Positions 5,232-27,778 of a DNA stretch of 28,723 nt are shown here, piece after piece. The position numbers and the translations under genes are program-made. The DNA is taken from IMG/VR virus record IMGVR_UViG_3300000117_000041, positions 1-28,723 of that record; one strand, 5' to 3'. The notes beneath the pieces are model-generated. The model worked only from the letters and a program-made list of their open reading frames with translations. It did no database searches and had not been told where the DNA came from. The DNA is from a virus. Position 1 is the first letter of the stretch. Each line of letters opens with the position of its first letter.

Positions 5232-5554
5232 TAAAATTTGCTTATTATGAGTTCGTCAATGTAATTTTGTATTTCTTTTTTTGTTGCAACCATAGAAAAA
5301 CTAATGTCAGCTTGAAATCTTTTAACTTCTTCGCCATCATCAAATATTATTATAGTTGGCACTACAGCTATTTTGTATTTAGTTTGATTATCATTTTGCT
5401 CTATCAAAAGTGCTTGTCTATCACATTCTTTTAATTTTGAGAACCAAACTACATCATTGTTTTTATTCCAATCTGCATTAAAGTGCACAGCTTTTATTTG
5501 AGCTATACACGAAGATGAAATAAAAATTATAATGAAGGTTATTAAAGCTTTCAT
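5231..5554 (-). CDS. Exported thioredoxin-fold protein without CxxC
   Basis: A 107-aa protein starting at 5554 in a TAATG overlap. Residues 1-18 are a signal peptide (MKALITFIIIFISSSCIA, then Gln19), so export through Sec is likely; C16 could instead suggest a lipoprotein, but the context is not a clear lipobox. After it come VHFNADWNKNND at 23-34, then YKIAVVPTIIIFDDGEEVKR at 60-79. The second block is the typical thioredoxin segment with the cis-proline (P66) followed by a strand and a DG turn. The first block sits where FxAxWCxxC would be, but both active-site Cys are missing; only C44 remains in the mature chain. It is therefore unlikely to catalyse disulfide exchange and more likely binds a partner. 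Neighbours are a Cys-rich surface protein and a membrane coiled-coil protein. Confidence 0.75.
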   Translation of the reverse strand: MKALITFIIIFISSSCIAQIKAVHFNADWNKNNDVVWFSKLKECDRQALLIEQNDNQTKYKIAVVPTIIIFDDGEEVKRFQADISFSMVATKKEIQNYIDELIISKF

Positions 5555-9397: not shown

Positions 9398-9428
9398 CAA
9401 ATATAGTTAATTTTATTCTCTAAATAAA
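9398..9428 (-). promoter_or_regulatory. Bacteroidota-type promoter for the appendage module
   Basis: In the 29-nt gap 9384-9412 the minus strand reads TATATTTG at 9405-9398, an exact TAnnTTTG -7 box. TTTA at 9428-9425 is 19 nt upstream and serves as a -33 box (consensus TTTG); it falls inside the last codons of the giant gene. The start of transcription would be close to 9391, leaving a very short leader before the ATG at 9383. This would uncouple the appendage genes from the giant gene. Confidence 0.65.
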
Positions 9429-12400
9429 GGTTCAGTTATAGCCTTGGCTGGTGTTATTTTACGAGCCGTGCTAAATGCTTTTAAATCTCCTTGCTTGCCA
9501 AACTCACCACTACGCTCATATCTTTGCAATGTTGCTAGTTCTTTACTAAACTGTAACACATTTTTACCTGTATTGATCGAAGCTGGCGGTAAAGTATAGT
9601 TAACAAATCTATTAACATCAGTAAATATTAAAGCATCATTAGAAAGCTTTTGTATTCTATCTGCATAAAAATCATCATCATCAGCAGCCATGCCCATAAG
9701 CAACAACATTGCGGTCATTCCAAAACCTCTTAATAGTGCATTGATTGCATCTTTTCTGTGCTGTGGTAATGCTTCAAACTCTGCACGCATTTCAGATAGC
9801 TTGCTTGTGCCATTCATCATACGCATTACAAAGTCATATCCTGCTCTGTAAGAGCCTATCTCGTATTCACCGAATCTGTTTATGTCCTCTTGCTTAAGTC
9901 TGTTATAAGCCAATGTTATAAACCATCTTTTAAATTGTTGCGCAGCCACACCTAATGAATAAACACTTAATAGTCTTTGATCTATTTTAGTATAACCTTC
10001 ACCGTGTAGTGTAGCTATCTTGTTGTTTATTTCCATAACTCTTTCGTCACTTACAATACCCGACTCATATTCTTGCGGAGTAAGCTCACCCAAGAAAGCA
10101 GTACCTTGTATCCAATATTCAGATAGCTCCATAGGTAAAAATGCCCATTGTTCTATTTTACTAAATGAATCACGATCACCTACCACATCACTAAACGATA
10201 ATTCAATAACTCTGTATTTTTTTAAAAGCTCTATGCCTTTCCATCCGTCTTTATTCAAAGATGTCCAGAATCGTTTTTCTCCTAAAGCAAACTTAGATCC
10301 ACCTTTATCTCTTAGCTCTTGGTATTTACCAGCAAGTATATTGCCAATACCCACACTTGTACTAAAACCTAAGTGTATTAAAGCTGTCCACCTAACCATA
10401 AACTGTATAGCTTTGTCAGCAGTTTTACCAAATATAGATGTTTGTCTTTGATTTCTTAAAAAGTTATCTCTCCATACACGCTGTACATACTCAGCTGTAT
10501 TCTCATTACCCATCTCTCTATTTACAGCTATAACTCCATCAACTAAGGTAGCTACATCATTAAACCCTCTAAAGCTTTGATCTACTGATCCGTGTACAAA
10601 TGTTACAGATCTAACATACTGTTTAAGGTTATCTGCTAGATTATAACTTGTAAGCTCTTTAGCTCTTGTAGTACGACTTGCATTAAATCTTGAGAACAAA
10701 CCACCTTCCATCAAAGTATCCATTTCTAAGTCTGTAGCAATTATATCTGTACCGTCTTCATGCTTACCTAGGGCTAATTGTTTTTCAGCTCTTTTTTGAA
10801 GTTGTCTTAAATGTCTTACTTTAGTTACTTGATTTTCATCAATTGTCCCATCCATATATTGATTTTTCCAAAACTCAAATGACTGTGGTTCTTTTCTTGC
10901 ATATTTACCTACACCAGTAAGCTTTACGTGATTTATGTTAGAAGTAGATCCTAGATGATTAGCATATAACCCAAGAAGTCCTCTTGCAGATAATGCTTCA
11001 AGATTACCCATTTGGAAATGAGGAATATATAAATCTTGTCCTTTACGTTTTAATAACTTCTTATAGCTATTAGTTATTTGTTGATATTTATTGTAAAACT
11101 CTATTTCTGTTTGAGTAGGATTTTTACTCATAAATTCTGTTCTATTGAAAAGTCTTATACTACTGTCTGGCTGAACGTCAATCATTTTTCCGTACAACAA
11201 TTCAAATCTAGCTCTTGGATTAAACAAACCTTTTAGTCCAAGTCTTTTGCTTTTAATAAGTGCTTTTTCAATTTTGTTTACTTCAGCTATTTGTTTTTTA
11301 ACCTCAACAGCATACAATCTATATTGTCGCTGTATTTCATTGATCATCTCTTGAACCTCTGGTCTTTTGGATGTCATGTTGTTTGCACCAAACCATTTAC
11401 GAATTACACTTATATCTTCGTTGCCTTCGTATTTGTATTTGCCTTTAGATTTATTTCTAAGGTTTTTGATTTGTTTACTCATTGCTTTCTTACCTAAAGC
11501 AAGGTGTAATTTGTGTAACAGTCTAGCATTAGCTACTTCGTCTGTTGTAGCCTGTATTTCTTGTATAGTTTTATTAAGCTCATTCATGCTAAGACTATCA
11601 ATACCCTTTTCTTCTAATTGCTTTTCTCTTGCGTCTAGTTTTCTATATTCATCTTGATACTGATCATATCTGCCATCAAAATAAGATTTATAGTCACTTT
11701 GTTTTATAGCATCATAATTATATCCTAAGAATTTAAAGTATTCGTCTTTATTCAACGGTCTGTTTATTTCCGACAAATGATCTAAATAAAACTCCTTAGC
11801 TTTTTTAAATTTAGCTGTACCGTCTGGCTCTATTTGAACTGCTTGTTGTAGTGTCTTTTGTTGATTAACACTTATCTTATCAGCAACATCCTTAAATATG
11901 TTTGGATGATTAACAAATAACTGTGTAGCTTTATCTTTTACAGATTTAGATTCAGTAGAAGACTCTTTATCTTTTTCTGATTCAAAGTGTTCGTCAAGCA
12001 TATCAAACTTACCGCGCATGTATTCTTTAGAGAACAATGGTGTAATAGAGTTACGCTCGAAGCCTAATTTATTCTTTATAAAATCATACTGCAATAAAGC
12101 ATCTTTTATCTCTGTAGGAAGAACTGTAAACTCATTACGAGCTAATTGTATTTGTTCTTCATTGCTAAACGAGTTGATTTGTTTTTTGTTTATTTCTATT
12201 TGATGTTGATAGTAATCAGACTTGCTGTCGTTACTTAATAATAAATACTTACGAACAAAGTTATCAACAGGTAAATCTTTTCTATTGTTATATTCTTCTA
12301 TAGTATTGTATACCTCACCAATTGTTTTATTATTATTAAGTGCTGGTATAGCTTCAGCAACCTTCATCAAATAATAATCTTCAATTATCTTTCTATGCTC

Positions 12401-15400
12401 TCTTCTTTCGAAATTAAGTTTAATCTTTTTCTCGTCTTCAATGTATGCTATAATATCACGAGCTTCTTTCGTGTACATAAATGATGTAGACTTCTGACGA
12501 TCAACTTGCTGTTGTAATAAATCAATAGAATGTTTTATCAAAGGATCAGATCTAAAGTTACCCATTGTATTAGGTTCAAGCAAACTTGACATACGTCCTT
12601 CACCATTTATAGTGTCTATAAGAGATTGTGCATCATGACCATGCTTAGGCATAGATTTATGTACAGATAGTGCTTTACCAATTGAGAATATCTCATCAGT
12701 AACGCTTTCTAGTTTATCCATAAATCCTATTAAGGCATACTGTGTGTCCTTGCTGTTTCTTTTTAATTTAGATATGTCTAAGTTTATTTCAGCTGTTGTA
12801 TACTTTTTAAGTATTGCTTTTGCTTTAGCTTTGTTTACACCACCAATCTCCATTATTGCTTGTATAGCAGCAGAACCTTTTGTTACAGTCATTACAGATT
12901 GATCGCCTCTATACTTGTCATATGTTTTAACAGCAGGATTGTTCATTATGATAGATATATCTTTTAAATCTAAACCGTGTCTTGCTAATAAGGTAAACTG
13001 ATTTACCGTGTTAGGAGTTAATCCCATTTTGTTAGCATATTGATACTTGGCATTATCTAATACAATGTTTAATAACTCTGCTACAGCAAACGCATTACCT
13101 GCTGCGTTATCTTCAGATGCTATATCAATTAGCCCATTAATATCGTTGTAACTTTTCTCAGTACCTTTTACATTCATCGTGAAGTTAAAGCCAACACCAT
13201 ACCCAGCCATTACGTTTAATACTCTTTGTAATGAAGCTACTGTACCAATCATATTTTGTGCAGGCACGTTGTCATTAAAGTATTGTTTGTCACCTATTGG
13301 TAGTAATTGTGATTGTCTTTGCTCTTCTTTACCATAGAAGTTTTTAACGGCATCTACAGCTTCTTTGGCTACCTTTTCAATGTCAATAGGAGTGGTTAGC
13401 TCGTTATACTTTTGACTGCCTATTTCTATGTCAGCAATAAGATTTATATTAAGCTCTAATAGTCTATTAGCATCAGTTTGCCATTCCTTCAAAACATTAG
13501 TAACTGGCACAGCTTTACGCTTTGTGCCTGGTATTGTAATAGCTTCATCTATATTACCTTTGTGTTCATAGTTAAGGAACAAAGAGTCACCGTCCATATC
13601 TGATCCTATAACTTCAGATACTTTAGATGGTACAGATATAATAGATCTTGCTCCTTCTACACCTTCAGCATGGAAATCTTTAACTACTATCGCTACTGTA
13701 GACTGTTTACCATGTGCAGGTACACGTGTAGCTAATATAACATCTCCAATCTTTACACCGTCTGTTTTAGCTGTAGCTGGTATAATACCTTCTGAAACCA
13801 CAAGATCTCTACCCTCTTCTATATATCTATTAAGTCTATTCTTGTATGTTCCTGTTGGAGCTTTTTCAGCTAACTCAGACATCTTTTGATATGCGTTCAG
13901 ATTCATACCTATACTTGATACCTGGTAAGCTATAGTTCCTTTAAACATAGCCTTAGTACCAAACTTAACTAATCTTGAAGCTGCAAGTTGCTGCATAAGA
14001 TTATGCATCTGAGGTAATAGTGCAGGTGCATATTGTGCTAGAGATGTATTAAGATTACCGAAAAACTCTTCGCCTATTAGCTTGCGTAAATAATCTACGT
14101 CTGCTTGTCTTTCTGCTGGAGTTGACGTGTCTTTATATATAACAGGACCTTTCTTTGTATTTTGATAGCCCTTCATTGCTTTTGCAGCTAGATCATGCAT
14201 TTCTCTAACTATAGCTGTTTCTTCTGTAGTTAAGTTAGAATGATGATGTCCAAACAGCTGTGATGGCATGTGGAATGTATGACGCTCTTTATCAAGCTCT
14301 ACTTGCACACCAAATCCCTCTCCTGATATACCTGTCCAATTACCTTCTTCAGTTTGATCGTATATCTTATCTTGCTCTTGACTTATCTCCTCAACAGACA
14401 TTTTATCTATATCTATAAGGTCTCTTTTTATTTTACCATCTGCTCCTTTGTAATATGGTTTTGGAGCATATTGTTTCAACGCAGATCCAAAAGTAGCAAC
14501 AGGTGTAAAGTCATGATCTTGTTGACTATCGCCAAACTTTTGTTCAGCTATTACTTCTTTACGTTTTCTAAGTACGTCTGCTATCTTTTTAAGAGTTGGA
14601 TTGTTTTTCTCCATTTCAGGAGTAAGCTCTACTATCTTAAACTTACCAAACGTTCTTTTGCCTAATAAGTTTTTGTTTTGATTGTTTACCTCAACATAAT
14701 CATACACGTGCTTAAAGATATGACCTACCTTACGCATAGAACCAAACTTGTCTCTTATCTTTTGTCCGTCACCAGGAAGAACATAAGCCTCAGCATCTGT
14801 AGCTTTGTGCAATCCAGTCGTTCCTTGATACTCTCCATTTTCATTTTCAAATAGATCTTGGAATGCAACAAACTCTATAGGTGTATTACGATCATGTGGT
14901 GTATGCCTCTTGATTGCACCTTCAGCACGCTTAATGTAATCTATTTCGCTTTGCGACTCACTATGCTTACCTATTAAGAGTTGTTGAGCCATAGCCTTAT
15001 TAATAACATAGTTACCTAAGAACTCTTTTAGTTTAGCATTGGTTAGCTTAGATCCGTTTTTACCTATGAGAGTATTAAGCTCTACTTGCTTTTTGTCTTT
15101 AAGTATTTCAGTCTTAAAGTTTTGTACATACTCATCAGTTATTATAAGCTTATACTTGTCGCCTTTCTTTTCTATATCAAATGGAAAGACTCTTTTACCA
15201 TCACCATATGTTTCATTAACAAGTCCTGATTCATACGCCATTCTTACCAAATCATTCTTTTGTTTTGCTGTTCTAGCAAGTATAGACTTTACATAGTATC
15301 TACGTTTAGCTGCACCAAATACAGCAATAGGTTGATCGTAAAATATTGTTTCCTTATTTGTTTTATTTAGATCTAAGTTGTATAGATACTCATTTAGGTC

Positions 15401-18400
15401 TGCAAGCATAAGCTCTTGACTATCCATCTTTACATACTTTCTATTTCTACGATCTAAATTAAAACTTTCGTTCTTAGCAACAACTACACCAGACAACATA
15501 TTGATTGATAGTTCAGATCCTGAATATAGTATTCTAGCATAAGGATTTACAAACTTGCCATCTTTAATATAGCCTAATGATTTCATTAACCTAATATAAG
15601 CCTGTTTGTTATCTCTTCTTAGTTTTGCGTAATTTTCATTTTTGTTATGTAAGCTATTCTCTTTGTTAATAATCATAGTAGGATTCTCCGCTACATCATT
15701 AACCATAGTTATATAGTTCTTTGCTCTTGACTGTACTATAAGCTCTGTAAGAATATTTTTAAAACCATTTTGTATTTGCAATACATCGCCTCTACCTTGA
15801 TTATCTACAAAGTCTTTAATATTAGATTGTACTATTTCCTGTACCGATCCGTATCTTTTACCCTTGTAATTAAATCTTCTACCAGTCTCTGTAAATAGCT
15901 CTGGGCTTATGTATTGATAGTACGATGAGTCAGTATATATTGCATCAAAGGCTTCTTTTACATTACCTGCCTTGACTAAGTCAATTACTGCAAATCTTTC
16001 TTGTGATAACTTAGTTGGTCTTTTAAATGTCTTACCCTCAAAACTACCAAACCATAATGGATTTGCATGTTGATCCATACGAGATACCCATCTCTTTTCA
16101 TCCATACTTAAAGACTCTTCGCTTATCCAAGTGTTTACACCATTGTCACCTTTTCTGAAACTAATTTGTTTCATTGTTTCAATCTTCTTGTTAGCAAAGT
16201 CAATAGACATATCTAACAGTAAAGCATCGACTAAAGACTCTCTGCCAAACTCTTTTTGCAAAAACGCAATAAAACGTTGCACCTCAACATTATCACTATT
16301 AAGAACTTGATCAACAAAAGCAAAAGCATTTTGTTTTTTTACTCTCTGCCCTATTGCAAATAGTTCTGCTAATAACTCTGATTTGTTTACAGGATTGTTT
16401 GGTGTCTTCTTGCTTTCTGTTTGTGAAAAACCTTCTATTACAGTAGATGTTGTTCCAGACAAAGCCTTTTCTTCTCTGTCGTATAGTTGTCCTGCATCAC
16501 TCTCTTCTTGTATAGTTTCTTCGTTTTGTTCAAACTGTAAAACTCTTTCTTGGTCAAAAGCTTCTTTATCTATTTCTTGATTGTTAAGTTTTTGATCAAT
16601 AGCATCCGCAAGCCTATCTAACACTTCTCTGTATCTTGCGTAATCAACTTTATCTACTAATGATTGAACTCTACGTTTTATAAAGTCATGTTGTATAGAT
16701 CCTACACCAAATGGCGCTTTTTGTTTTGTAACGCTATACTTCATGCCGTTCATCTTATACACCTCTACAAGTGCTTCTTGAACAGCAGCATCTCCTTTCA
16801 ATCCTTTAGCCGCAACCTTTTGCGTAACGATCTGAAACATACCTTTAGTAGTAACAGACTCCATACCAAATAACTTTTTACTTGGCTTTTCACTATAAGA
16901 GTTTTTCTTAAGCTGATTATCTACATTTAATGTATTAAAGTTTTTGCTGATATAATCCATCATCTCATCAAGATTCATATCAGCTATTTCTGGGAATGCT
17001 GTTTTTACAGCTCCTTCAGCTTCTTCTCTATTCTTCCCAAACTTACTTACTCTTTTGTATATTCTTTTAAATACGTTTTCAGTTTCTAATGCGTCTTTAC
17101 CATTTTCAATAACATTGAAGATTCCACCCTTACGATTGTATTCTTCATTAGAGAAAGCAAACGCTTCTTCTAATAAACCATACTGAGCCTCATCAGACAT
17201 TCTTTTAATCAAACCTCTAGCGCTAAGAAATGTAAACAACTCTTTTGAGCTTTCTCTGTATTGCTGCGCATTGCCTTCTTCTTGTGATTTACGTATAGTG
17301 TCTACAAGACTTGATAGCACATTTACTACATCTTTTCTATCACTTTTAAGATATGAATTTATGATTTGTTGACCTGTTACAAACTTTCCTCCAACACGAT
17401 AACGTGTAAGCTCAGGATAGTTAACCGCTACCTGTGTTAACCATCCTTGTTTAATGAGTAGCTTGTTCAATCTTTTTTGTAAAGCTGTGCCAGCTATAGA
17501 TTGATAGTATGGATGCGATAACTCGTGAATAAGGTCAGTCTGCATTGCAGCATCTTTATTTACAAGTATTGTACTCCCTAAGAATACAGCTGCTGCTGGT
17601 GCACCAAAACCTTCTAATAATTGTTTGTATGTAAAGGCAACGTCTATGCCTGGGAATTGTTTTTCTAACGTTCTACGTAAATAACGTTGTACTATTTCTT
17701 CACGTGGATTGACAGTAATTTGGTATATATCATTACTGCCTCTTGTGTTTGCTTTCTTATATTTTGTAAGATCGTTGTTATCTAAGTCTTGATCTAAACT
17801 ATTTGATAAATCTGTTTCTGAATCTTCTATAATTATAGCTTCATCAATAACATCCGTGTTAATTTCCTTTAAGGATTTTTTACTTTTTTTTTTAGGTTTT
17901 GGAGCTCTTTGAGAATTTTGCTTTTCTATTTCGGCCATTACCTTCTCAAATTCACCTACATTGTCTTGATAGAATTGTATTTCTTCTTCTGTAAGGGGTT
18001 CGGTTTTGTTTGCCATTTTTTCATACAATGACATTACCTTAACTCGATTTTTCTTTTGTCTTTTTGACATCCTGTTCATTGTGTCTTGGAACTCAGTAGT
18101 TTCTCTATTCGCGTCTCCAAAAACATCTTCTTTAGAATCAGGCACAGGTTTGTTTCTTTGTTCTTTAACCTTTTCTTTTACTGTAGCCGCTGTTTTCTTT
18201 ACTAAATCTAATCCTGCATTAAGAACAGATATAACTTTTTCAGTTATAGTACCTTCTAATCTACCAGCTGTAAGATCCGTCATCTTATCTAAAAACTTAC
18301 CTGAAGCACCTTTGAGATCTTTCTTTTTAATTTTCTGTATAATCTCTTCAGCTTTTTTTCTAGCTTCTTCTTTTGTAAACCCTTTGTTACCTACGGCTTT

Positions 18401-20731
18401 AAGCGCAGCTTCCACTTCTTTTTCTATAGCTTCTGCTGTCTTAGGTGCGTTTTCTTTTAAATACTTATTTACATAGTTAGATCCTTTTTCTTTTTGTTCT
18501 TGAAAAAACTTAACTATCTTTTTAGCTGGTTCACTTTGTATAACTTCTTGACCTTTTTCTTTTACAGCGCCTACAGCCTCTTTAGCTGCTCCTACAACGC
18601 CTACCGCTTTTACTTTATCCCTTACTGCCTTAGCACCTTCAACGATTGCTCCAGGCACTTTAGATATAGCTTGCCCAGCACGTTTAAGTAATCCTGCTGG
18701 CGTTTTAGCTTGCGCCTCATCAATACCTTCTGTTGTGTATTGCTCGAACTGTCCTGGTGTAAGTCCCTTAGATGATCGCTTAACACGTGATCCATCTTTA
18801 GTCATCTTACCTTTACGAACAGTAGCTATTTGTTCTACAAGATTGTCAAGTCCTGCTATTTCTTGATTTGATGTTTCTTCTAATCCAGCATAGTTAGCCT
18901 CTATATCTTCTATGGCTTCTTGTAGCTTTTGCTTATTTTTAATAGTTTTTTTCTTAGATTCTATTGCAGCATCAGCCTTCTCTCTTTCTTTTTGCTTAAA
19001 TCTTTCTATCTGAGCTATTTTAACTTTCTGTAAAAATATTTGATTTTTACCTTCATAGCTCAAGGTATTGTCTTGATGTGCCGACTGGAACATTTCAGCA
19101 TACTCATCAAATGAGTCTTTTATTTCCTCAGCATATTCAACAGACATTTGTTTTTCAGCAACCATACGATCAAGCTTCTCTTTAGCTCTGTCAGGATTAC
19201 CATTATCATTGATAAGCATACCAGCAATAACCTCTGCTCTTTGTTGTTCTGCTTGTTCAAAAGTTGCACCGCTCTCTAGCTGATTATTAAATGTTGTTCT
19301 TTGTTTCTCTAACTGATATTCTCTTTCGGCTATTGCATCTACATAACCTCCTCGCGCACCCATAGTAAGACCAAGAGCAAATGAGCTTACTCTTGTTTCT
19401 TTCATTTCTGGACTATTGAAAAACTCCATGAAACCTGGATAGCCCTCGCCTACATCATAATTAGAAAGATCAGGTCTTTCTTCATATATAGCTTTACGCT
19501 TAATCCATTCTTGATATACTTCTTGGTATTGCTCGGTAAAACCTTCTATTGATCCTGAAGCGCCAGCTTGTAAAAATGGTGCAATCTTTTGACCAAACGT
19601 AACACTACTTTTTGGTATAGACTTCATACCAGCTGAAAGGCGACCTAAACCTCCAAAGGTAAGACCGAACTGCAACATGTCAACACCAATCCATTTGAGG
19701 TTGTCTGTATAAACTTCTTTTGCAGCTGCTGAAGCTTCCTCAGGAGTTAAACCTGCCGCTAACGCTTCTGTAAGTGTTTCTCCCGCTACGAAAGCTCCTT
19801 CCGCTAAGTTACCACCAATACCACCACCAACTGCTGAAACTATAGCTTGTGGCCCTTTTGCTAATGCTGCTGTTTCATCTAAAAACTTATCACCAACCTT
19901 AGCTGATGGATTATACATTTGTGCTTTTTTCAAATTCTTTTTAGTTACACCTTTTACTTGTGCTTTAAAAAGATTTGATCCTCCTTTTGCAAACTTAACA
20001 GCTTTGCTACTATTAAGTAAAAATTTTGTACTAGCTCCTGCTGCACCCATACCTGGCACAAAGAATGACATAGAGTATGGTAATAGTCTTGCAACTTTAG
20101 TTGTCCAAAATGATGGATCAGCCATTGAAGACCATGATATATTTTCTAATTCAGGCGGAATAAATACATCATTTTTCATTTGTATTTCTTGCCCTTTACG
20201 TTTTAAGTAAGATGCTACTGTTGTATTAATACCTGCTTCTGGATCCCACGGTGTAATTGTTGATCCAATAAAATCAATAGTTTGTCCAGTACCTTCTACT
20301 AAATCTCCCCATCCTGCCGCTACACTTCTACCAAAGTCAGATTGTTTTGTTCCACCAGCAACAGATAAACCAGCTGCTGCACCAGCTAAAGTTCCCATAG
20401 GTCCACCTATTGAACCTATCAAACCACCACCTATAACTGCTGCTGCGTCACCTGCTGTAATGTCTGGTGCTAAAAATGTATCAGGATCTGTTATTTGTTG
20501 ATCAGGATTTTCTCCATACATCTGCTGCTGTAATACAGCCCCAGATTCTCCCATCATTTCAGAGCCTACAGCATTCGATATTGCTCTATCGTACGCTTGT
20601 TCTTCTTTTGATTTTTGAAAAAGTGATTCAAAACCTTTAGGCTGCTGCATGCCTTCATCATATTTTTTTGCAGCATCTGCTGGTTTTTCTTCAGCATTTA
20701 TGTTTTTTGTAAAATTAAAAAATGTACTCAT
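9413..20731 (-). CDS. Giant 3772-aa ejection protein with metallopeptidase motif and two-barrel RNA polymerase core
   Basis: Starts at 20731 (TAATG) and is uninterrupted. Residues 91-127 are a glycine zipper (GGGLIGSIGGPMGTLAGAAA); more hydrophobic stretches lie at about 218-235 and 298-310. Charged helical, coiled-coil-like sequence runs through about 470-970. A zincin motif HELSHP is at 1069-1074, with EEAF at 1188-1191 as a possible third ligand, resembling metallopeptidase domains of phage polyvalent proteins. Near 2256-2265 is KFGTKAMFKG, whose Lys-x7-Lys spacing fits the two Lys of the RNA polymerase beta-subunit barrel. RVPAHGKQS at 2336-2344, then GSDMDGD ending at 2382, match the beta-prime order RxPxxHxxS...DFDGD, whose three Asp bind catalytic Mg. 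A hydrophobic helix is near 3670-3684. I infer a virion-carried RNA polymerase and ejection protein. Motifs are seen; activity and packaging are inference. Confidence 0.75.
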   Translation of the reverse strand: MSTFFNFTKNINAEEKPADAAKKYDEGMQQPKGFESLFQKSKEEQAYDRAISNAVGSEMMGESGAVLQQQMYGENPDQQITDPDTFLAPDITAGDAAAVIGGGLIGSIGGPMGTLAGAAAGLSVAGGTKQSDFGRSVAAGWGDLVEGTGQTIDFIGSTITPWDPEAGINTTVASYLKRKGQEIQMKNDVFIPPELENISWSSMADPSFWTTKVARLLPYSMSFFVPGMGAAGASTKFLLNSSKAVKFAKGGSNLFKAQVKGVTKKNLKKAQMYNPSAKVGDKFLDETAALAKGPQAIVSAVGGGIGGNLAEGAFVAGETLTEALAAGLTPEEASAAAKEVYTDNLKWIGVDMLQFGLTFGGLGRLSAGMKSIPKSSVTFGQKIAPFLQAGASGSIEGFTEQYQEVYQEWIKRKAIYEERPDLSNYDVGEGYPGFMEFFNSPEMKETRVSSFALGLTMGARGGYVDAIAEREYQLEKQRTTFNNQLESGATFEQAEQQRAEVIAGMLINDNGNPDRAKEKLDRMVAEKQMSVEYAEEIKDSFDEYAEMFQSAHQDNTLSYEGKNQIFLQKVKIAQIERFKQKEREKADAAIESKKKTIKNKQKLQEAIEDIEANYAGLEETSNQEIAGLDNLVEQIATVRKGKMTKDGSRVKRSSKGLTPGQFEQYTTEGIDEAQAKTPAGLLKRAGQAISKVPGAIVEGAKAVRDKVKAVGVVGAAKEAVGAVKEKGQEVIQSEPAKKIVKFFQEQKEKGSNYVNKYLKENAPKTAEAIEKEVEAALKAVGNKGFTKEEARKKAEEIIQKIKKKDLKGASGKFLDKMTDLTAGRLEGTITEKVISVLNAGLDLVKKTAATVKEKVKEQRNKPVPDSKEDVFGDANRETTEFQDTMNRMSKRQKKNRVKVMSLYEKMANKTEPLTEEEIQFYQDNVGEFEKVMAEIEKQNSQRAPKPKKKSKKSLKEINTDVIDEAIIIEDSETDLSNSLDQDLDNNDLTKYKKANTRGSNDIYQITVNPREEIVQRYLRRTLEKQFPGIDVAFTYKQLLEGFGAPAAAVFLGSTILVNKDAAMQTDLIHELSHPYYQSIAGTALQKRLNKLLIKQGWLTQVAVNYPELTRYRVGGKFVTGQQIINSYLKSDRKDVVNVLSSLVDTIRKSQEEGNAQQYRESSKELFTFLSARGLIKRMSDEAQYGLLEEAFAFSNEEYNRKGGIFNVIENGKDALETENVFKRIYKRVSKFGKNREEAEGAVKTAFPEIADMNLDEMMDYISKNFNTLNVDNQLKKNSYSEKPSKKLFGMESVTTKGMFQIVTQKVAAKGLKGDAAVQEALVEVYKMNGMKYSVTKQKAPFGVGSIQHDFIKRRVQSLVDKVDYARYREVLDRLADAIDQKLNNQEIDKEAFDQERVLQFEQNEETIQEESDAGQLYDREEKALSGTTSTVIEGFSQTESKKTPNNPVNKSELLAELFAIGQRVKKQNAFAFVDQVLNSDNVEVQRFIAFLQKEFGRESLVDALLLDMSIDFANKKIETMKQISFRKGDNGVNTWISEESLSMDEKRWVSRMDQHANPLWFGSFEGKTFKRPTKLSQERFAVIDLVKAGNVKEAFDAIYTDSSYYQYISPELFTETGRRFNYKGKRYGSVQEIVQSNIKDFVDNQGRGDVLQIQNGFKNILTELIVQSRAKNYITMVNDVAENPTMIINKENSLHNKNENYAKLRRDNKQAYIRLMKSLGYIKDGKFVNPYARILYSGSELSINMLSGVVVAKNESFNLDRRNRKYVKMDSQELMLADLNEYLYNLDLNKTNKETIFYDQPIAVFGAAKRRYYVKSILARTAKQKNDLVRMAYESGLVNETYGDGKRVFPFDIEKKGDKYKLIITDEYVQNFKTEILKDKKQVELNTLIGKNGSKLTNAKLKEFLGNYVINKAMAQQLLIGKHSESQSEIDYIKRAEGAIKRHTPHDRNTPIEFVAFQDLFENENGEYQGTTGLHKATDAEAYVLPGDGQKIRDKFGSMRKVGHIFKHVYDYVEVNNQNKNLLGKRTFGKFKIVELTPEMEKNNPTLKKIADVLRKRKEVIAEQKFGDSQQDHDFTPVATFGSALKQYAPKPYYKGADGKIKRDLIDIDKMSVEEISQEQDKIYDQTEEGNWTGISGEGFGVQVELDKERHTFHMPSQLFGHHHSNLTTEETAIVREMHDLAAKAMKGYQNTKKGPVIYKDTSTPAERQADVDYLRKLIGEEFFGNLNTSLAQYAPALLPQMHNLMQQLAASRLVKFGTKAMFKGTIAYQVSSIGMNLNAYQKMSELAEKAPTGTYKNRLNRYIEEGRDLVVSEGIIPATAKTDGVKIGDVILATRVPAHGKQSTVAIVVKDFHAEGVEGARSIISVPSKVSEVIGSDMDGDSLFLNYEHKGNIDEAITIPGTKRKAVPVTNVLKEWQTDANRLLELNINLIADIEIGSQKYNELTTPIDIEKVAKEAVDAVKNFYGKEEQRQSQLLPIGDKQYFNDNVPAQNMIGTVASLQRVLNVMAGYGVGFNFTMNVKGTEKSYNDINGLIDIASEDNAAGNAFAVAELLNIVLDNAKYQYANKMGLTPNTVNQFTLLARHGLDLKDISIIMNNPAVKTYDKYRGDQSVMTVTKGSAAIQAIMEIGGVNKAKAKAILKKYTTAEINLDISKLKRNSKDTQYALIGFMDKLESVTDEIFSIGKALSVHKSMPKHGHDAQSLIDTINGEGRMSSLLEPNTMGNFRSDPLIKHSIDLLQQQVDRQKSTSFMYTKEARDIIAYIEDEKKIKLNFERREHRKIIEDYYLMKVAEAIPALNNNKTIGEVYNTIEEYNNRKDLPVDNFVRKYLLLSNDSKSDYYQHQIEINKKQINSFSNEEQIQLARNEFTVLPTEIKDALLQYDFIKNKLGFERNSITPLFSKEYMRGKFDMLDEHFESEKDKESSTESKSVKDKATQLFVNHPNIFKDVADKISVNQQKTLQQAVQIEPDGTAKFKKAKEFYLDHLSEINRPLNKDEYFKFLGYNYDAIKQSDYKSYFDGRYDQYQDEYRKLDAREKQLEEKGIDSLSMNELNKTIQEIQATTDEVANARLLHKLHLALGKKAMSKQIKNLRNKSKGKYKYEGNEDISVIRKWFGANNMTSKRPEVQEMINEIQRQYRLYAVEVKKQIAEVNKIEKALIKSKRLGLKGLFNPRARFELLYGKMIDVQPDSSIRLFNRTEFMSKNPTQTEIEFYNKYQQITNSYKKLLKRKGQDLYIPHFQMGNLEALSARGLLGLYANHLGSTSNINHVKLTGVGKYARKEPQSFEFWKNQYMDGTIDENQVTKVRHLRQLQKRAEKQLALGKHEDGTDIIATDLEMDTLMEGGLFSRFNASRTTRAKELTSYNLADNLKQYVRSVTFVHGSVDQSFRGFNDVATLVDGVIAVNREMGNENTAEYVQRVWRDNFLRNQRQTSIFGKTADKAIQFMVRWTALIHLGFSTSVGIGNILAGKYQELRDKGGSKFALGEKRFWTSLNKDGWKGIELLKKYRVIELSFSDVVGDRDSFSKIEQWAFLPMELSEYWIQGTAFLGELTPQEYESGIVSDERVMEINNKIATLHGEGYTKIDQRLLSVYSLGVAAQQFKRWFITLAYNRLKQEDINRFGEYEIGSYRAGYDFVMRMMNGTSKLSEMRAEFEALPQHRKDAINALLRGFGMTAMLLLMGMAADDDDFYADRIQKLSNDALIFTDVNRFVNYTLPPASINTGKNVLQFSKELATLQRYERSGEFGKQGDLKAFSTARKITPAKAITEPLFRE

Positions 20732-22629
20732 TAGTAATTAAAATATTTAGTCCAAAGTCTTGCTCTTGACTTTATATTGTTAATGTCTTCTTTTGTAGAC
20801 ACTTTTTCTTTGTATCTATAATATAATTCTAAATTACCTGATGCTAAAATTTCATGCAGCTCTGGATTTTCTTTTTTAAGATTACTTAAATTACCTATAG
20901 CCACCTTCATCATTTCGTGTGTATTTGCTGTTTTTTGATTTATTGCTGCTTTTCCTGCGTTTTCTAAAAGTTCTGTCATAACTATTGGTAGCATTTTATT
21001 ATCAATTCCTGCATTTAACATGCTTATAGCTATTGGAGTTGAATAAGTTTGAGCTATTAAATCTACACCACCTTCATTGCCCTCTGCATAAATAGTTGAT
21101 AATTGATTTTGAGCTTTATCCTTAAGTTTCTTTTGTTTTTCCCTTTTTATTTTGTCTTTAGCAAAGTTAGCAATATTTGTTCTAGTTGATGAAAGCGTTT
21201 CATTTATTTTTTCATCTTTATCCAAACCAGCTATGTTGACATAATCCATACTTAGTTCTTTGTAGTATACATCGTCCTGGAACATATCGTCCTCTTCCAT
21301 TTGTATAATGTAAGCTGGTTGAAACTGAACATCATCTAATGTTGCAAGTTTTTCATTTATAGTAGAAGCTCTATTAGTTGGATCTAAATCTGCTTCACCT
21401 TCTGTCATTAATACCTCTATAGTTCTTCCAAACTTATCTTTACCAATAGCTTTTTGTCCAACAAAAATCCCTTTGATTAACATATCATCTAAGTTTTTTT
21501 CCATAGATAATGGACCAAGCTCATCTTCAGTAATCATGCTACCTTGGAAATTAAACAGTCCTGCACCATCTCCAAAGTTTTCTATAATAAAGTCCCCTTC
21601 ATCAAACTGTATTCTATCACCAAATACTTGACGTAAAACTTTTTCTTGCATATCAGGATTGGTAAATATTTCACCACTTGTTTGTGCTACTATACTATTT
21701 TTAACTATAGGTCTTGAGTTTTCATCGTACCCAACCAACATATCGTAATATTGATCAGCGCCAGACGCTTTAAATATATCTCCATATGAGTATTGTCTAA
21801 GCTGTGCACCTGTAGCTTTTGGTGCCATATCCAAACCTTTAACAAGTTCAGTACCTAAAGTTGTTTTAATTTCTTTTTCACCGTAATCAGCAATTTGCGT
21901 GCCAGCTAATCTTTGTTCAAGATAAGGCATCATTAAAGTTACATCTTGTTGAACAGATTTCATAATCTCATCTTTGTTTGGATTATCTCCAATATGATAT
22001 TCAAAATCTGCAAGTAATGTAGCTTGATTAGCTAATAAATAATGCTCTAATCCAACTTTTTCTTCTACAGTCATTTCATTTAAAAATTCTGTATCAATCT
22101 CACCATCTAACTGACCTCTATATGTTATCGCATCTGTTTCTCCATTCATAAATTTAGCATAGTTATCTTTATCTCTCATAGAGATTAAATGCCCTTTATT
22201 TGAATTTTGGGCTTGTATAATTTTAGCTAAATTTTCTTTATTTTGTGAAACTTGATAAACAAAATCGTTGTTGTTTAGTTTGTATTGGTATTCGGAAATC
22301 AATCTATCTATACCAAATTGTTTAGCTTTTTCATACGATCCATATTGACGCAACATATCATTTATGGGTGTAAGATAGTCATCAGACATTTGTCTAATTT
22401 TTTCTTTGTCTTGTTGTCTTGCGTGCTGCCCTGTTAATAGATCGTTAGCTATTGAATATGATTGATCAATAGATTGTTGAAATGATTGTCGTTGCGCATC
22501 CTCTTGTGCTTGTTGTTGATCCTGCATTTTAGAAATAGCCTGCATATATTGCAGCTCTTCATTTCTTCTTTCTTTTCGACTAGACGATCCAAAAAATCCT
22601 GCTAAAGCATTGTATCCGTATGCATCCAT
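20731..22629 (-). CDS. Probable internal/ejection virion protein, 632 aa
   Basis: It starts at the ATG at 22629, 1 nt after the preceding stop, and ends in a TAATG overlap with the giant gene. The N-terminus MDAYGYNALAGFFGSSSRKE is followed by a Gln-rich helix at about 29-58 (KMQDQQQAQEDAQRQSFQQS). The rest is mixed and acidic, with no signal peptide and no clear membrane span, ending RARLWTKYFNY. I do not recognise a named domain. Its place between the lysozyme-bearing protein and the giant protein matches the internal proteins gp14-gp15-gp16 of T7-like phages, which leave the capsid before the DNA and build a channel. Tight coupling suggests fixed stoichiometry with the giant protein. Confidence 0.65.
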   Translation of the reverse strand: MDAYGYNALAGFFGSSSRKERRNEELQYMQAISKMQDQQQAQEDAQRQSFQQSIDQSYSIANDLLTGQHARQQDKEKIRQMSDDYLTPINDMLRQYGSYEKAKQFGIDRLISEYQYKLNNNDFVYQVSQNKENLAKIIQAQNSNKGHLISMRDKDNYAKFMNGETDAITYRGQLDGEIDTEFLNEMTVEEKVGLEHYLLANQATLLADFEYHIGDNPNKDEIMKSVQQDVTLMMPYLEQRLAGTQIADYGEKEIKTTLGTELVKGLDMAPKATGAQLRQYSYGDIFKASGADQYYDMLVGYDENSRPIVKNSIVAQTSGEIFTNPDMQEKVLRQVFGDRIQFDEGDFIIENFGDGAGLFNFQGSMITEDELGPLSMEKNLDDMLIKGIFVGQKAIGKDKFGRTIEVLMTEGEADLDPTNRASTINEKLATLDDVQFQPAYIIQMEEDDMFQDDVYYKELSMDYVNIAGLDKDEKINETLSSTRTNIANFAKDKIKREKQKKLKDKAQNQLSTIYAEGNEGGVDLIAQTYSTPIAISMLNAGIDNKMLPIVMTELLENAGKAAINQKTANTHEMMKVAIGNLSNLKKENPELHEILASGNLELYYRYKEKVSTKEDINNIKSRARLWTKYFNY

Positions 22630-22630
22630 A

Positions 22631-24784
22631 TTAATTTGGGTTAACTGATCCTGTTGTAGTGTTAGATGAGCCAGGGGTATTTAATCCAACGATAGGGTTA
22701 TTACTATTATTTTGTATTTTATTAGCCAACATTTGCTCAAACATATTTTTATAAATACTTGATTGATCGTTCATGTTATCTGCTACTTGTTGAAATGCTA
22801 ATTGTGCAAAATTAGAAGCTCCCTGTTTGTTTCTAATTTGTTCTGCTAAGTCGTCTGCTCTTTCCGCAGCTCCTTTTCTATATTCAAACTCTTCTTTAAA
22901 ATTAAGAGCCTGTCCATATTTATCCATATTAATTCTTTGTAGCTCTGCATCTTTTGCTGCAAAGTTTAATAAAGCTGTAGATCTTTCTGCATCGAGTACG
23001 CCTGAAGTTGCGAGAAATTTAGCTCGGTCTCCTGCTGTACCTCTTACAGAATTTTCAATACCTATTTGATATGCTTTATCTATATCTTTTCTGTGTTTAG
23101 CAGCCTCTTCAGGAGTAAAACCCATTTTAGAAAGTTGTTGTGTTTGATATAAATGTTTTTTAAACATATCTGACAAACCAGGTAGCTCCAAAGGTTTTAT
23201 TTCCTTCATAGCATCATTGTAAGCTTGTCTACCCATAGTCGCAGCCACCAATGTACCAGGGCCACCTATCATGTCTGTAATCTGTTTTACAAGACCTAAC
23301 CCTTTTGCTAATCCGTCACCAACTTTACCTAATGAATCCCAAAAACCTTTACCGTCTTTAGCATCATTATTTGAAACGTTATCGTTTTTGATTGTTGGCT
23401 CGTCTATATCTTCTGGCTTTACTTCAACTTCAGGAAGATTAACAACAAAATCATTAGGTATAGTTTCAGGAATCTCAGCTTTTTTTTCTGGCTGATTTTC
23501 TATTTCCTTATTTTTTGTACTATCAACAATTCGATCAGACAAACCATAGCTTCCTTCTGGTGTTTCTACTTCCTCTAACTGTGGCATGGTATAACCAAAA
23601 GGACCTTCTGATCTTGGAGCTCCTTGAACTTCTGATATTTCTATAGAAACCTTGTCTATCTGTTTCTTAAGACTAATAATATCATCATTGCTAAAATCTA
23701 TAGCGTTGTCTTGTATAACAGCTAACTGCTCTCTTAATCTTTTTTCTTGCTCAACTAAACCTGATAATTTTGCATTTTTATCAAAGCTAACTTTAAAATT
23801 TTCTAACTCTTCTTTTGCTATTTTATAAGCATTAAGATCGCCTGGTTGATTAGTAGCAAGATAGGTTTTGTACAGCTTATTAACTTTAGTTGTAAGCTCA
23901 TTTTGTGTTTTAAGTTTAGCTTGTTCTTTTTCTTGTTTATCGCTGTTCTCTAAACTTATATTAGCCTTTTCTCTATTTGCATTTTGTTTCCTTTCATTAT
24001 AAGCTACTAAGTCCTTTGGATCTTGTTGTAGTTGAACTGGCTTTGGACCAACAAATGTAAATCTTTTAGTAAAAGGAGTTTGTTCGAATCCATCTTCTGA
24101 GAAAAAAGCTCTATAAAATTTAGTGCCATCTTCAAACTCATCTTCTTTCATAACATTGTCAGCACCTTCTGACTCAGCGCCAATAGATGTGTAAATGTTT
24201 GCTATATTATTTATTTCTTCTTGTGTATAACTTTTGTCATCCGCAGAGTGTGTCCAAGTATTTGTTTCTGTATTATATGAAGATGTAAAGTTTGTGTATT
24301 TGTTAGTTTTTGTATCATATACTTTGTATGTTACACCGCCTCTACCTTCAGTATTTAATATATCACTAAAACCTTGTATGTATGATATTCTTTTGTCTTG
24401 TGCATCAACTGATTGATCTTGTGGCTTTTCAAAATCTAACATAAATTGAACTACTGCATCATCTACGCTATCAAATTCAGAATTTAAATAATTTTGAGCT
24501 TCTGATTCTTCTAATGCAAAATCTATTTGAGCCTTCCAGTTACTTTTCCAATCAGGAACTTGTTGCTGTAATCCTGATTTACGAGTTTTAAAGGTATGTT
24601 GGAATAAACCAATACCTTTATTTTCCATATCTCCAATTTCTACAGCATCTATATAAAAGTCTGACTCTGCTTTTATATTAGCTAAAATACCCATAGCTTT
24701 ATTATGAGTCATTTTAGGCTTAGTCATTAAATAGTCATAAACCTGTTTTGGTGATATTTGTTGTGTTCCTGGTAATACTGCCAT
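22631..24784 (-). CDS. Virion protein with N-terminal phage tail lysozyme domain
   Basis: A 717-aa protein starting at the ATG at 24784. Residues 13-143 match the phage tail lysozyme family (PF18013 type): KAMGILANIKAESDF at 29-43 with likely catalytic Glu40, then NKGIGLFQHT at 55-64, WKAQIDFALEE at 83-93 and FMLDFEKPQD at 114-123. The AESxF, GxGLxQ and FExPxD blocks are in the family order. The domain cuts peptidoglycan during entry. A long charged coiled coil follows at about 265-400. Then come an acidic Pro/Glu stretch, a small hydrophobic patch (GPGTLVAATMGRQ) and an Asn/Ser/Gly-rich end. In T7 the equivalent transglycosylase is part of gp16; here it is on a separate chain beside the giant protein. 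It probably opens the wall for DNA ejection rather than causing lysis. Confidence 0.8.
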   Translation of the reverse strand: MAVLPGTQQISPKQVYDYLMTKPKMTHNKAMGILANIKAESDFYIDAVEIGDMENKGIGLFQHTFKTRKSGLQQQVPDWKSNWKAQIDFALEESEAQNYLNSEFDSVDDAVVQFMLDFEKPQDQSVDAQDKRISYIQGFSDILNTEGRGGVTYKVYDTKTNKYTNFTSSYNTETNTWTHSADDKSYTQEEINNIANIYTSIGAESEGADNVMKEDEFEDGTKFYRAFFSEDGFEQTPFTKRFTFVGPKPVQLQQDPKDLVAYNERKQNANREKANISLENSDKQEKEQAKLKTQNELTTKVNKLYKTYLATNQPGDLNAYKIAKEELENFKVSFDKNAKLSGLVEQEKRLREQLAVIQDNAIDFSNDDIISLKKQIDKVSIEISEVQGAPRSEGPFGYTMPQLEEVETPEGSYGLSDRIVDSTKNKEIENQPEKKAEIPETIPNDFVVNLPEVEVKPEDIDEPTIKNDNVSNNDAKDGKGFWDSLGKVGDGLAKGLGLVKQITDMIGGPGTLVAATMGRQAYNDAMKEIKPLELPGLSDMFKKHLYQTQQLSKMGFTPEEAAKHRKDIDKAYQIGIENSVRGTAGDRAKFLATSGVLDAERSTALLNFAAKDAELQRINMDKYGQALNFKEEFEYRKGAAERADDLAEQIRNKQGASNFAQLAFQQVADNMNDQSSIYKNMFEQMLANKIQNNSNNPIVGLNTPGSSNTTTGSVNPN

Positions 24785-24785
24785 T

Positions 24786-26048
24786 TTAACCCATATTATT
24801 TTTTTTCCATTTTGAGTGATTAGTTTTTATCATGGAAAGTATTTCATCATTACTCATGTCTTCATTGTACTGTTTATCTATGTGATCATATATACCAGCA
24901 CCTTTCTTTGCGACCTGTCCTGTTGGATTGCCATTCTTGTCTAATACAGTGCCGTCTTGAGCTACAGGTAGTGGATTGTCTTTATGGCTTGCTTTTCCAG
25001 GAGTTATGTTATTTTGATTATCTGCCTCTTCTTTAAATATTTCAGCAGCAGTATCGTCATCCCCTCTATTCATTGCGTCACGCATTTCCTCTTCTCTGTT
25101 GTTTATAAGCTCTCCTCCCGTAAACTCGGCTTTTGGCATTTCCCCACCAGTAGCAGCTGTACCTTCTTCTTGTGGTATCATTTCTCCTTCACCGCCTTGC
25201 TGTTCTATAGCCTCTTGCTTCTGTTGATCTTGTTCACTATTCTGTAAAACATTCTCAGCTGTAGCAGGATCTATTTCATTATCAATTTCTTCACCACCAA
25301 ACACTTCTTCATAGGCCTCTGGATCAGCAGCTTTTAAAAACGATTGCGATATGTTTTTAGCCTGATCTAAGTTAGCGAAACCATTATCTCCAACAGGACC
25401 ATCAAAAAATACATTTTTAAAGAATTGATTTTGTTCTCCTTTGTTTTCTCTTATGTAGTTATCAACTACACTATTGTAATCATTTTTTACTATTGCATCA
25501 AATAATGTTTCATTTATATCATTTGTGCGCATGTAGTCTTGTATAACAAATTGACTTTTAATTGGTAATCTATCAAAAGCATCATCACCATATTTACCAT
25601 CTATATACTCTTCAGCTTTTTCTTCTGCTTTCTCTACAATATCACCAAGCGTTTCTTGCACAGATTCATTTGATCTAATACCAAAATCAGCTTTCATTTT
25701 TTTTGCCTTTGTCAAATCGTCTGTTATTCCTAAAGAAATACCCATGCCTGCTTTAACTTCGTATTTCCCATTATCTAATGGCTGTATGAACGCTTCAAAG
25801 GAATCAGTTTCTTCATGATAGCCTTTCATTTGTGGATTTTCTAATCCTGCAAGTGTTTGAATATAATTAGGGTATGCTTGCATTTTAAGAGCTTTATTAA
25901 TAAATAAAACACCATCAGCATCTTGCAAACCTTCTTCTTCAATAAGTTGTTCTATAGTATCATCAGAATCTGCGTCATCAAAGTGACCACCATTAGCGTA
26001 CTCATCTTGCTCTGCAAGTTTGTATAACCTTTCTAATTTGTCGTTCAT
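24786..26048 (-). CDS. Acidic virion protein with a possible degenerate lysozyme-like domain
   Basis: A 420-aa protein starting at 26048 in a TAATG overlap. The N-terminus has DEYANGGHFDD, another YxxGG element. Residues about 75-205 (EETDSFEAFIQPLDNGKYEV, then KAGMGISLGITD, then FDRLPIKSQFVIQDYM and LFDAIVKNDYNSVVDNYI) follow the helix order of T4-type lysozymes (GH24). The GxGH hallmark reads GMGI and a Glu-x8-Asp pair is not evident, so it may be inactive or a false resemblance. A Gln/Glu-rich linker follows. The end has AEFTGGELINNREEEMRDAM and ITPGKASHKDNPLPV, a pattern I recall in large marine Bacteroidota phage proteins. It lies within the ejection-gene block and probably belongs to the virion. 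Confidence 0.55.
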   Translation of the reverse strand: MNDKLERLYKLAEQDEYANGGHFDDADSDDTIEQLIEEEGLQDADGVLFINKALKMQAYPNYIQTLAGLENPQMKGYHEETDSFEAFIQPLDNGKYEVKAGMGISLGITDDLTKAKKMKADFGIRSNESVQETLGDIVEKAEEKAEEYIDGKYGDDAFDRLPIKSQFVIQDYMRTNDINETLFDAIVKNDYNSVVDNYIRENKGEQNQFFKNVFFDGPVGDNGFANLDQAKNISQSFLKAADPEAYEEVFGGEEIDNEIDPATAENVLQNSEQDQQKQEAIEQQGGEGEMIPQEEGTAATGGEMPKAEFTGGELINNREEEMRDAMNRGDDDTAAEIFKEEADNQNNITPGKASHKDNPLPVAQDGTVLDKNGNPTGQVAKKGAGIYDHIDKQYNEDMSNDEILSMIKTNHSKWKKNNMG

Positions 26049-27778
26049 TATTGTCCTAATTGATTTTGTTGATAGAATCCAATGCCATCTTGTCCCATAC
26101 GCTGTGCAAAACCTGCAGATCCACCGCTTATATTTGGGCCTCCACTAACTACTCTTGGGGTAAATCCTGGACCTACACCACCTTGATTAGCACCTACACC
26201 CATAGCTGCAGGAATCAATGGTGATTGCATCATTGCTTCTGGCACCGTTGGTAATGGCTCCATTTTTGGTAAAGGCTCTTCTTTTCCTCTGCCTCCTAAT
26301 AAATCTTTAACACCGCCAACAACACCTTTTACAACATCGCCAACTCCTTTGACTACAGCCTTAACGCCTTTGCCTACAAATTTAACAGCATCTTTAGCAA
26401 CTTTAATTCCAGTAGTCACAACCTTCTTAGCTACCTTGGCAACTTTAGTCACAACTTTTTTAGCAACTTTAACGCCTTGCTTAACTACTTTTGCACCTGT
26501 TTTTACAACTTTCTTAGCTACCTTAGCTCCAGTTTTAACAACTTTTTTTGCAACCTTGCCAACTTTTTTTCCTACTTTTTTTACGCCCTTTTTAATTTTC
26601 TTTATAGTCTTTTTAATTTTTCCCTTAAGTTTTTTAAAAAATCCCTTTTTTTTCTTTTTTCTTCTTTTTCTTTTTCTTCTTCTAAAGAATCCACCAAAAC
26701 CAAACTCTTCTTTTTCTTGAGATGATAAAAAGTCAAAAATACCTTCACCTTCTGGAACATCGTCAGTAAGTTCATTGTACTCTGGAACATGTCCTAAAAG
26801 ACCACCTTCACTATATTGTGTTGTTCCATATGTGTTACCATATCTTGCAGCACTTTGATAATATTGCTGTGCTTGAAATTGACTTGCTTGTGCTTGTCTG
26901 TTTCTTTCAATGCCTTCTAAATAAGCATCACGTATTTCTTGTTTTCTTTGAGCTACTGCCTCTTCGTATTCACGTTGTGCTTTTGCTCTTGCAGCTTTAC
27001 GAGCCTTGTCTCGTTTTTTCTTTCCACCAAGTAGCGATATACCTATACCTATCAAAGCGCCTATTGGTCCAGCTGCCATACCAAGTTTTGCAGTTAATGC
27101 TGTGCCTACTGCTGTTCCAGCTACTTTAGCTCCAATAAAAGCACCTGCACCTGCACCTGATATACCAGCTCCAAGCATTTCACCACCTGTGAATGTAGTT
27201 GGATCATCATCATCAAACGCACTTCTTACAAGTCTTCCTGCTAAGTATGTAGGTATTGCTGCACTTGCTTTACCAGCCATTAAGTTACCATAGTATGATT
27301 TAGATGCAGCAGCAAATTTACTCGGCGCTAACTCAAAACCTGCTGGCATTTGTCCTCCAGGCAATAACGAAGCTTCGGATCCTGTTACAGGGTTTATTAT
27401 TTGCGTTGCACCTCCTGAACCTGGTATAGGACCTGCATATCTTATTTTGTCAACGAGATTACTTACACCTTTGCCTTTAATTAAACCTTCTTTACCAAAT
27501 AGTTGTTTACCCAACATTGCTGCTTGAGGAATCATTCCTACCATTTGCCCCATTCCTATTTTTTGTCTTTGATCAAAAGCTGGCTCAATATATGGGACTT
27601 CGGGAAACATAGCTTGTGCAGCAGAATACGCTGTATAGTTACCCATATTGTTTTGGTTGTATGCATACGCAGGTATTGTATTATTATACATATTTTGTGC
27701 CTGTGTATTAAAATCTCCATACGGGCTAAACATATTTCCGTATTGTTGCTGTATTGATGTAACGTCTGTTAGTGCCAT
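26048..27778 (-). CDS. Ejection-type virion protein with glycine zipper and cationic 11-residue repeats
   Basis: A 576-aa protein starting at 27778 in a TAATG overlap. Residues 1-190 are Gln/Asn/Ala/Gly-rich. A glycine zipper spans about 197-252 (GAGISGAGAGAFIGAKVAGT and GPIGALIGIGISLLGG). A basic helix follows at 253-300 (KKKRDKARKAARAKAQREYE). Then come YSEGGLL at 322-328 and an acidic patch, a run of Arg/Lys at 366-378, and KKLKGKIKKTIKKIKKGVKK. Eleven-residue repeats built on VAKKVVKTGAK occupy 409-492. The end is Pro/Gly-rich. The zipper suggests membrane insertion and the repeats an amphipathic, very basic helix for membranes or DNA. Position fits T7 gp14, an internal protein that forms an outer-membrane pore; that equivalence is inference. 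Confidence 0.7.
   Translation of the reverse strand: MALTDVTSIQQQYGNMFSPYGDFNTQAQNMYNNTIPAYAYNQNNMGNYTAYSAAQAMFPEVPYIEPAFDQRQKIGMGQMVGMIPQAAMLGKQLFGKEGLIKGKGVSNLVDKIRYAGPIPGSGGATQIINPVTGSEASLLPGGQMPAGFELAPSKFAAASKSYYGNLMAGKASAAIPTYLAGRLVRSAFDDDDPTTFTGGEMLGAGISGAGAGAFIGAKVAGTAVGTALTAKLGMAAGPIGALIGIGISLLGGKKKRDKARKAARAKAQREYEEAVAQRKQEIRDAYLEGIERNRQAQASQFQAQQYYQSAARYGNTYGTTQYSEGGLLGHVPEYNELTDDVPEGEGIFDFLSSQEKEEFGFGGFFRRRKRKRRKKKKKGFFKKLKGKIKKTIKKIKKGVKKVGKKVGKVAKKVVKTGAKVAKKVVKTGAKVVKQGVKVAKKVVTKVAKVAKKVVTTGIKVAKDAVKFVGKGVKAVVKGVGDVVKGVVGGVKDLLGGRGKEEPLPKMEPLPTVPEAMMQSPLIPAAMGVGANQGGVGPGFTPRVVSGGPNISGGSAGFAQRMGQDGIGFYQQNQLGQ
26303..26554 (-). repeat. 33-nt coding repeats for VAKKVVKTGAK units
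   Basis: Residues 409-492 of the 576-aa protein consist of seven 11-residue units and one 7-residue unit: VAKKVVKTGAK twice, VVKQGVK, VAKKVVTKVAK, VAKKVVTTGIK, VAKDAVKFVGK, GVKAVVKGVGD and VVKGVVGGVKD. Lys content falls and Gly/Asp rises along the array. The 11-residue period corresponds to three turns of a slightly unwound helix, as in synuclein- and LEA-type repeats. Confidence 0.85.

Follow-up and report, generated by a model that had tools for sequence, protein, structure and literature searches.

A giant reading frame in a crAss-like structural block

The window, by which we mean the whole 28,723-nt stretch of DNA analysed here, is part of a 48,963-base IMG/VR record and is dominated by a single ORF on the minus strand (9413..20731) encoding 3772 aa. 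ORF calling and translation confirmed the first-pass annotation in finding this frame intact and uninterrupted over 39% of the window, and we assign to its product, in order, an N-terminal module (N-module), a zincin-like region, a two-barrel RNA polymerase (RNAP) and a C-terminal module (C-module). Directly upstream, and sharing one base with the giant ORF, lies a gene for an uncharacterised protein of 632 aa (20731..22629), followed by genes for a protein of 717 aa that has a Phage_lysozyme2 domain at its N-terminus (22631..24784; Pfam E 2.6e-16), an uncharacterised protein of 420 aa (24786..26048), a 576-aa protein combining a Gly-rich hydrophobic segment with long amphipathic repeats of Lys/Val (26048..27778), and the C-terminal part of a 1717-aa crAss muzzle protein (27778..28723; full gene: crAss_MUZ E 7e-137), all of them on the minus strand. 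Encoded between the muzzle protein and the RNAP, the 717-aa protein is probably a wall-degrading cargo. The 576-aa protein, which adjoins the muzzle, appears to stand at the position of crAss cargo protein 1, a likeness that is positional: comparison of the neighbouring proteins with crAss cargo proteins 1 and 2 returned only a weak glycine-rich match, to this same protein. It also matches tape-measure PHROGs, possibly through composition.

At the other end of the window, also on the minus strand, a gene at 2979-5231 encodes 750 aa that begin with a signal-peptide-like sequence, contain about ten repeats of the form GCTD...NYN...DGSC and carry a T9SS type A sorting domain at the C-terminus (TIGR04183; 25.2 bits, cut-off 23). 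The product of this phage gene seems designed to be secreted by a host of the Bacteroidota. Two further minus-strand genes adjoin it, one (5231-5554) for 107 aa that match thioredoxin weakly and in part, the other (5916-6947) for a 343-aa protein with a signal-peptide-like start, for which no family was found.

The structural module of the record is crAss-like, with matches to Crass_capsid (E 3e-38), CrAss_Ring_1 (2e-16) and CrAss_Ring_2 (5e-12) in addition to that of the muzzle, and a P22-like portal and the terminase (TerL) are recognised in the same record. By its major capsid protein, portal, TerL, ring and muzzle proteins this is a crAss-like phage (order Crassvirales), with a muzzle and TerL about 25-29% identical to those of gut Crassvirales. 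IHF genes together with genes 74/75 are a listed criterion for crAss-like phages (PMC7886860). A search of the record for DNA polymerase A returned none. A nearly identical virus is present on a 65,524-base contig whose ends overlap by ~180 bases within the giant gene, suggesting that the map is circular and measures about 65 kb; several further contigs of the group measure 64.7-68.4 kb, which likewise suggests a genome size of ~65 kb for these phages. A DnaB helicase is encoded on the opposite strand, in a stretch of the genome absent from the IMG/VR record.

The giant ORF is not a product of chance, since another contig carries a 3744-aa ORF 74% identical to it and the other complete relatives, about 30-80% identical, hold all three modules in single ORFs of 3644-4100 aa. 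The statement that every complete locus is a single ORF excludes one relative (G002), in which undetermined bases (a run of Ns) interrupt the giant gene. A tree of the RNAP region recovers the window's group as monophyletic (100/99), with ProJPt-Bp1 as its nearest neighbour, at weak support and on a very long branch.

Modules of the giant chain

Searches with the full giant protein against Pfam, PHROG and NCBIfam returned no family reaching significance, and long queries found no match in INPHARED, whether compared as DNA or by tblastn. Raw BLASTP of the protein produced matches to the phi14:2 and crAss001 cargo proteins that were weak but collinear, while tblastn of aa 2101-2406 against 50,697 phages hit mostly crAss-like phages, the best match (E 2e-3) being an annotated RNAP subunit. 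A mixed crAss alignment was too divergent to scan the collection with. We compared the giant protein by hhalign with families built from 17 known crAss-like phages, using off-diagonal cells as controls. The diagonal was collinear, with N-module against N-module at 93% (E 3.5e-7), RNAP against RNAP at 97.9% (E 5e-13) and C-module against C-module at 98.5% (E 2e-15); off-diagonal cells reached at most 0.7%, and zincin against zincin 2.1%. The comparison was repeated with 27 sequences of the window's group divided into eleven tiles, with reversed sequences as controls, yielding 89-98% for RNAP tiles, 66-99.5% for C tiles and 54-79% for N tiles, against at most 1.6% for the reversed controls.

The N-module (aa 1-700; 18632..20731, minus strand) is the counterpart by hhalign of crAss001 gp47 and of the N-terminus of phi14:2 gp78, its tiles 1-400 and 301-700 scoring 54% and 79% with reversed controls <1%. 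The C-module (aa 3200-3772; 9413..11134, minus strand) corresponds to crAss001 gp49 and phi14:2 gp76, with a best tile at 99.5% (E 4e-23, 358 columns). For aa 601-1000, 1201-1650 and 2751-3200 no counterpart was detected with the hhalign tiles.

Several features named by the first-pass annotation are present along the chain (minus strand throughout). The glycine zippers that it described at the N-terminus correspond to a glycine-rich stretch at aa ~95-127 (20351..20449), with GG/GxxxG patterns over aa ~97-127, which is possibly a membrane-interacting segment but lies below a simple transmembrane hydropathy threshold. The charged region is a lysine-rich linker (aa 575-955; 17867..19009) in which K+R reach up to 23% per 150 aa at aa 750-900. 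The expected C-terminal hydrophobic helix occupies aa 3665-3683 and is followed by DDDD (9683..9739); hydrophobic segment and acidic run are kept in 27/27 relatives, 72-131 aa before the C-terminus. The zincin motif, HELSH, starts at aa 1069, and a polymerase motif, SDMDGD, at aa 2377.

The zincin-like region (aa 1040-1200; 17132..17614, minus strand) comprises HELSH at 1069-1073 and a downstream E1188/E1189 pair, from which we infer the third metal ligand. In the alignment of 27 proteins the H, E and H of the motif and both downstream E are invariant in their columns (27/27), and a contiguous HExxH is present in 26/27, placing a near-invariant zincin-like motif on the same chain as the polymerase, as had been proposed. 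The exception (L156, the giant ORF of G021) reads HEFTGH, with one extra residue, and its site may be altered. Another relative (L168) has a second HExxH, HETIH, 248 aa ahead of the conserved one (giant-ORF positions aa 1058 and 1306). The region stands where the crAss "zincin" does: the spacing between HExxH and the RNAP motif is 1309 aa in the window and about 1440-1670 aa, counted across genes, for known crAss N-modules with HExxH. Most of twelve crAss zincins examined have a downstream EE- or EN-type motif at variable distance, some of which may be chance occurrences. The zincin tile gave two weak values, 2% against crAss zincins and 8% against the mid-region of the RNAP, and the region had no match in Pfam. 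Its AlphaFold2 model was poor (pLDDT 59) and gave no PDB match; as the zincin fold is unconfirmed, protease activity is suggested at the level of the motif.

Domain-by-domain structure prediction, the check proposed in the first-pass annotation, was informative for the polymerase and not for the zincin region. The AlphaFold2 model of aa 1625-2784, built from 29 sequences (pLDDT 78, pTM 0.76), has as its best PDB match 6vr4, the virion RNAP of phi14:2 (Foldseek E 3.3e-22; Z 20.3, 924 residues aligned, 12% identity), whereas a profile search of PDB sequences gave no match. Runners-up in the fold search were the phage protein P74 gp62 (Z 12.8), plant RDR2 and fungal QDE-1, and matches to the model in a viral structure library were dominated by crAss-like phages. 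On this model the polymerase part is a two-barrel RNAP of cellular type, as first suggested. Its core aligned to 6vr4 spans aa 1688-2753 (12473..15670, minus strand), and the stretch covered by the alignment (chain 543-1821) is expected to include both barrels. In the PDB search the model matched two-barrel RNAPs instead of a T7-like single-subunit fold of the N4 kind. The metal-binding triad of two-barrel RNAPs is represented by DMDGD at aa 2378-2382 (13586..13600, minus strand), aligned on GSDFDVD of crAss001 gp50; a DFDGD DNA pattern gave no match, DMDGD being the actual motif. The G-x-D-x-D-x-D motif and the upstream R-x-P...S are both present in invariant alignment columns, with D, D, G and D of DMDGD, and likewise the upstream R and P, invariant in the 27 relatives.

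A probable virion cargo on one chain

We consider, with a probability of about 0.9, that the giant ORF encodes, in one chain, the whole transcription cargo of a crAss-type virion, made up of N-module, zincin-like region, RNAP and C-module. The giant protein is very probably virion cargo, since its counterparts in two phages are virion proteins: gp78, gp77 and gp76 of phi14:2 are annotated as structural proteins detected by MS/MS, and gp47, gp50 and gp49 of crAss001 were found in virions by proteomics (PMC10172136). The chain would be packed into the head late in infection and, preceding the DNA or travelling with it, would leave in a partly unfolded state by way of portal, ring barrel and muzzle, following the proposal made for the exit of crAss001 cargo through portal, barrel and muzzle (PMC10172136). 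In the host, the RNAP would refold and transcribe the early genes, in the DnaB-containing block on the opposite strand, before host RNAP takes over; the virion RNAP of phi14:2 is reported to transcribe early genes (PMC10136315). The C-terminal hydrophobic helix, with its acidic run, may tether the chain to the inner membrane, and the zincin may process the giant chain or host proteins, zincins of phage polyvalent proteins having been proposed to process multidomain chains (PMC5512222).

Origin and timing of the protein could be read differently. An assembly artefact fusing neighbouring genes might be suspected from the split gene of G002, yet that split falls at Ns, and the explanation is refuted by independent contigs, on which every other complete relative, about 30-80% identical, has the single ORF again. 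Unpackaged single-chain two-barrel RNAPs do exist, such as P23-45 gp64 (PMC10770324), and the polymerase could in principle be made after infection and stay out of the virion; we hold this to be very unlikely, because the giant gene lies in the structural block past the muzzle, on the same strand, its counterparts are virion proteins and its nearest fold is that of a virion RNAP.

The first-pass annotation had also placed an entry channel in the giant molecule. Under that proposal the glycine zippers at the N-terminus and the hydrophobic helix near the C-terminus would let the chain double as a DNA-conducting ejectosome, with the glycine-rich aa 95-127, the presence of the helix in all 27 relatives and the predicted membrane helices in the N-terminal domain (NTD) of N4 gp50 (PMC12633501) speaking for it. 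In crAss001, however, the proposed channel proteins gp45 and gp46 are separate from the RNAP cargo (PMC10172136), and in the window four other ORFs occupy the corresponding position (20731-27778). With the N-terminal stretch under the transmembrane threshold and one TM-like helix insufficient for a channel, we find this role quite improbable, and the zincin is more likely to process its own chain or host proteins than to build a channel. Such processing could go as far as a polyprotein, whose cleavage, perhaps the work of the zincin it carries, would release pieces resembling gp47, gp50 and gp49, either inside the virion or once the chain has been ejected. Separate genes for the modules in phi14:2 and crAss001, the near-invariant HExxH and EE, and the processing role proposed for polyvalent-protein zincins (PMC5512222) fit this scheme, but N4 vRNAP, which also has a zincin, is packaged unprocessed (PMC5512222), and other crAss-like fusions (N-module+zincin+RNAP, RNAP+C-module) have no known cutting; we judge it unlikely. 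The more specific proposal that these phages form an undescribed compact (~65 kb) crAss-like lineage with an obligate single chain, which its own zincin cuts into working subunits during or after ejection, seems to us rather doubtful.

We favour a single-chain virion cargo. The presence of one chain across the whole group argues that the three modules work together in equal numbers; to our knowledge, no roles have been established for the RNAP partner proteins (gp47 and gp49 families). With 3772 aa, where the annotated sets add up to about 5000-7400 aa, the protein offers a shorter construct for structural and biochemical work, useful for asking how a virion polymerase threads through the tail and refolds.

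Comparison with other virion polymerases

The first-pass annotation had asked whether homologues are split into separate genes in related phages. They are encoded by two or three genes in the surveyed crAss-like phages and by one ORF in the complete relatives of the window's phage. Steigviridae distribute the modules over three genes, Intestiviridae combine N-module and zincin in one gene and RNAP and C-module in the next, and Suoliviridae have N-module, zincin and RNAP together, followed by the C-module. None of the 17 references, a set that left out the epsilon and zeta groups and most named genera, has all three modules in one ORF, and a non-exhaustive search of the crAss-like phage literature found no description of a group with such an all-in-one chain. 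New here are the complete three-module fusion, its fixation in a small-genome group and its compactness; the parts themselves were already known.

Closest in fold is phi14:2, whose virion RNAP (gp77 in the GenBank record, gp66 of Drobysheva et al., PDB 6vr4) has gp78 and gp76 as partners. The two phages share the three modules in the same order and a similar gene order past the muzzle, with smaller genes in phi14:2 between the muzzle gene and gp78, gp77 and gp76; phi14:2, however, uses three genes (1797+2180+1421 aa = 5398) where the giant ORF is one of 3772 aa, and the shared catalytic motif differs in its residues, DFDID in phi14:2 and DMDGD here. The same three modules are virion cargo in crAss001 (gp47, gp50 and gp49; PMC10172136), but as three genes (2341, 2412 and 1349 aa), of which two lie on the opposite strand. 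In p-crAssphage (Carjivirus communis) there are two genes of 1957 and 4070 aa, gp45 with the N-module and zincin and gp44 with the RNAP and C-module and a hydrophobic helix near the C-terminus, annotated respectively as 'RNAP associated protein fused to zincin protease' and 'RNAP catalytic subunit fused to unknown RNAP subunit'. The Suoliviridae-type phages cr55_1, cr50_1 and cr272_1 carry N-module, zincin and RNAP on one chain (4551, 4774 and 6386 aa) and differ in having a separate C-module gene. The 6386-aa gene of cr272_1 (L021:3237-22397) contains 37 in-frame stops under code 11, consistent with the stop-codon reassignment described for crAss-like phages.

Beyond the crAss-like phages, the first-pass annotation had thought the combination of functions in one molecule unusual and had held that in T7 and N4 these jobs fall to separate proteins or a single-subunit polymerase. 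The claim of rarity does not stand, as N4 gp50, P23-45 gp96 and the annotated p-crAssphage fusions already combine such functions. The vRNAP of N4 (gp50; Schitovirus) is one chain of 3500 aa with an NTD bearing predicted membrane helices, an RNAP and a HExxH zincin-like domain (PMC12633501, PMC5512222). Its likeness to the giant ORF would lie in the mode of working, as a giant ejected chain; the N4 polymerase is T7-like and single-subunit, with the zincin placed after it. Thermus phage P23-45 gp96 (5002 aa) likewise unites a two-barrel virion RNAP with metallopeptidase and membrane domains in one chain (PMC10770324), but there the RNAP is N-terminal and fused to the tape measure of a long-tailed phage. 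The giant ORF would join N4 and P23-45 as another instance of an RNAP, a metallopeptidase motif and a membrane segment carried on one ejected chain.
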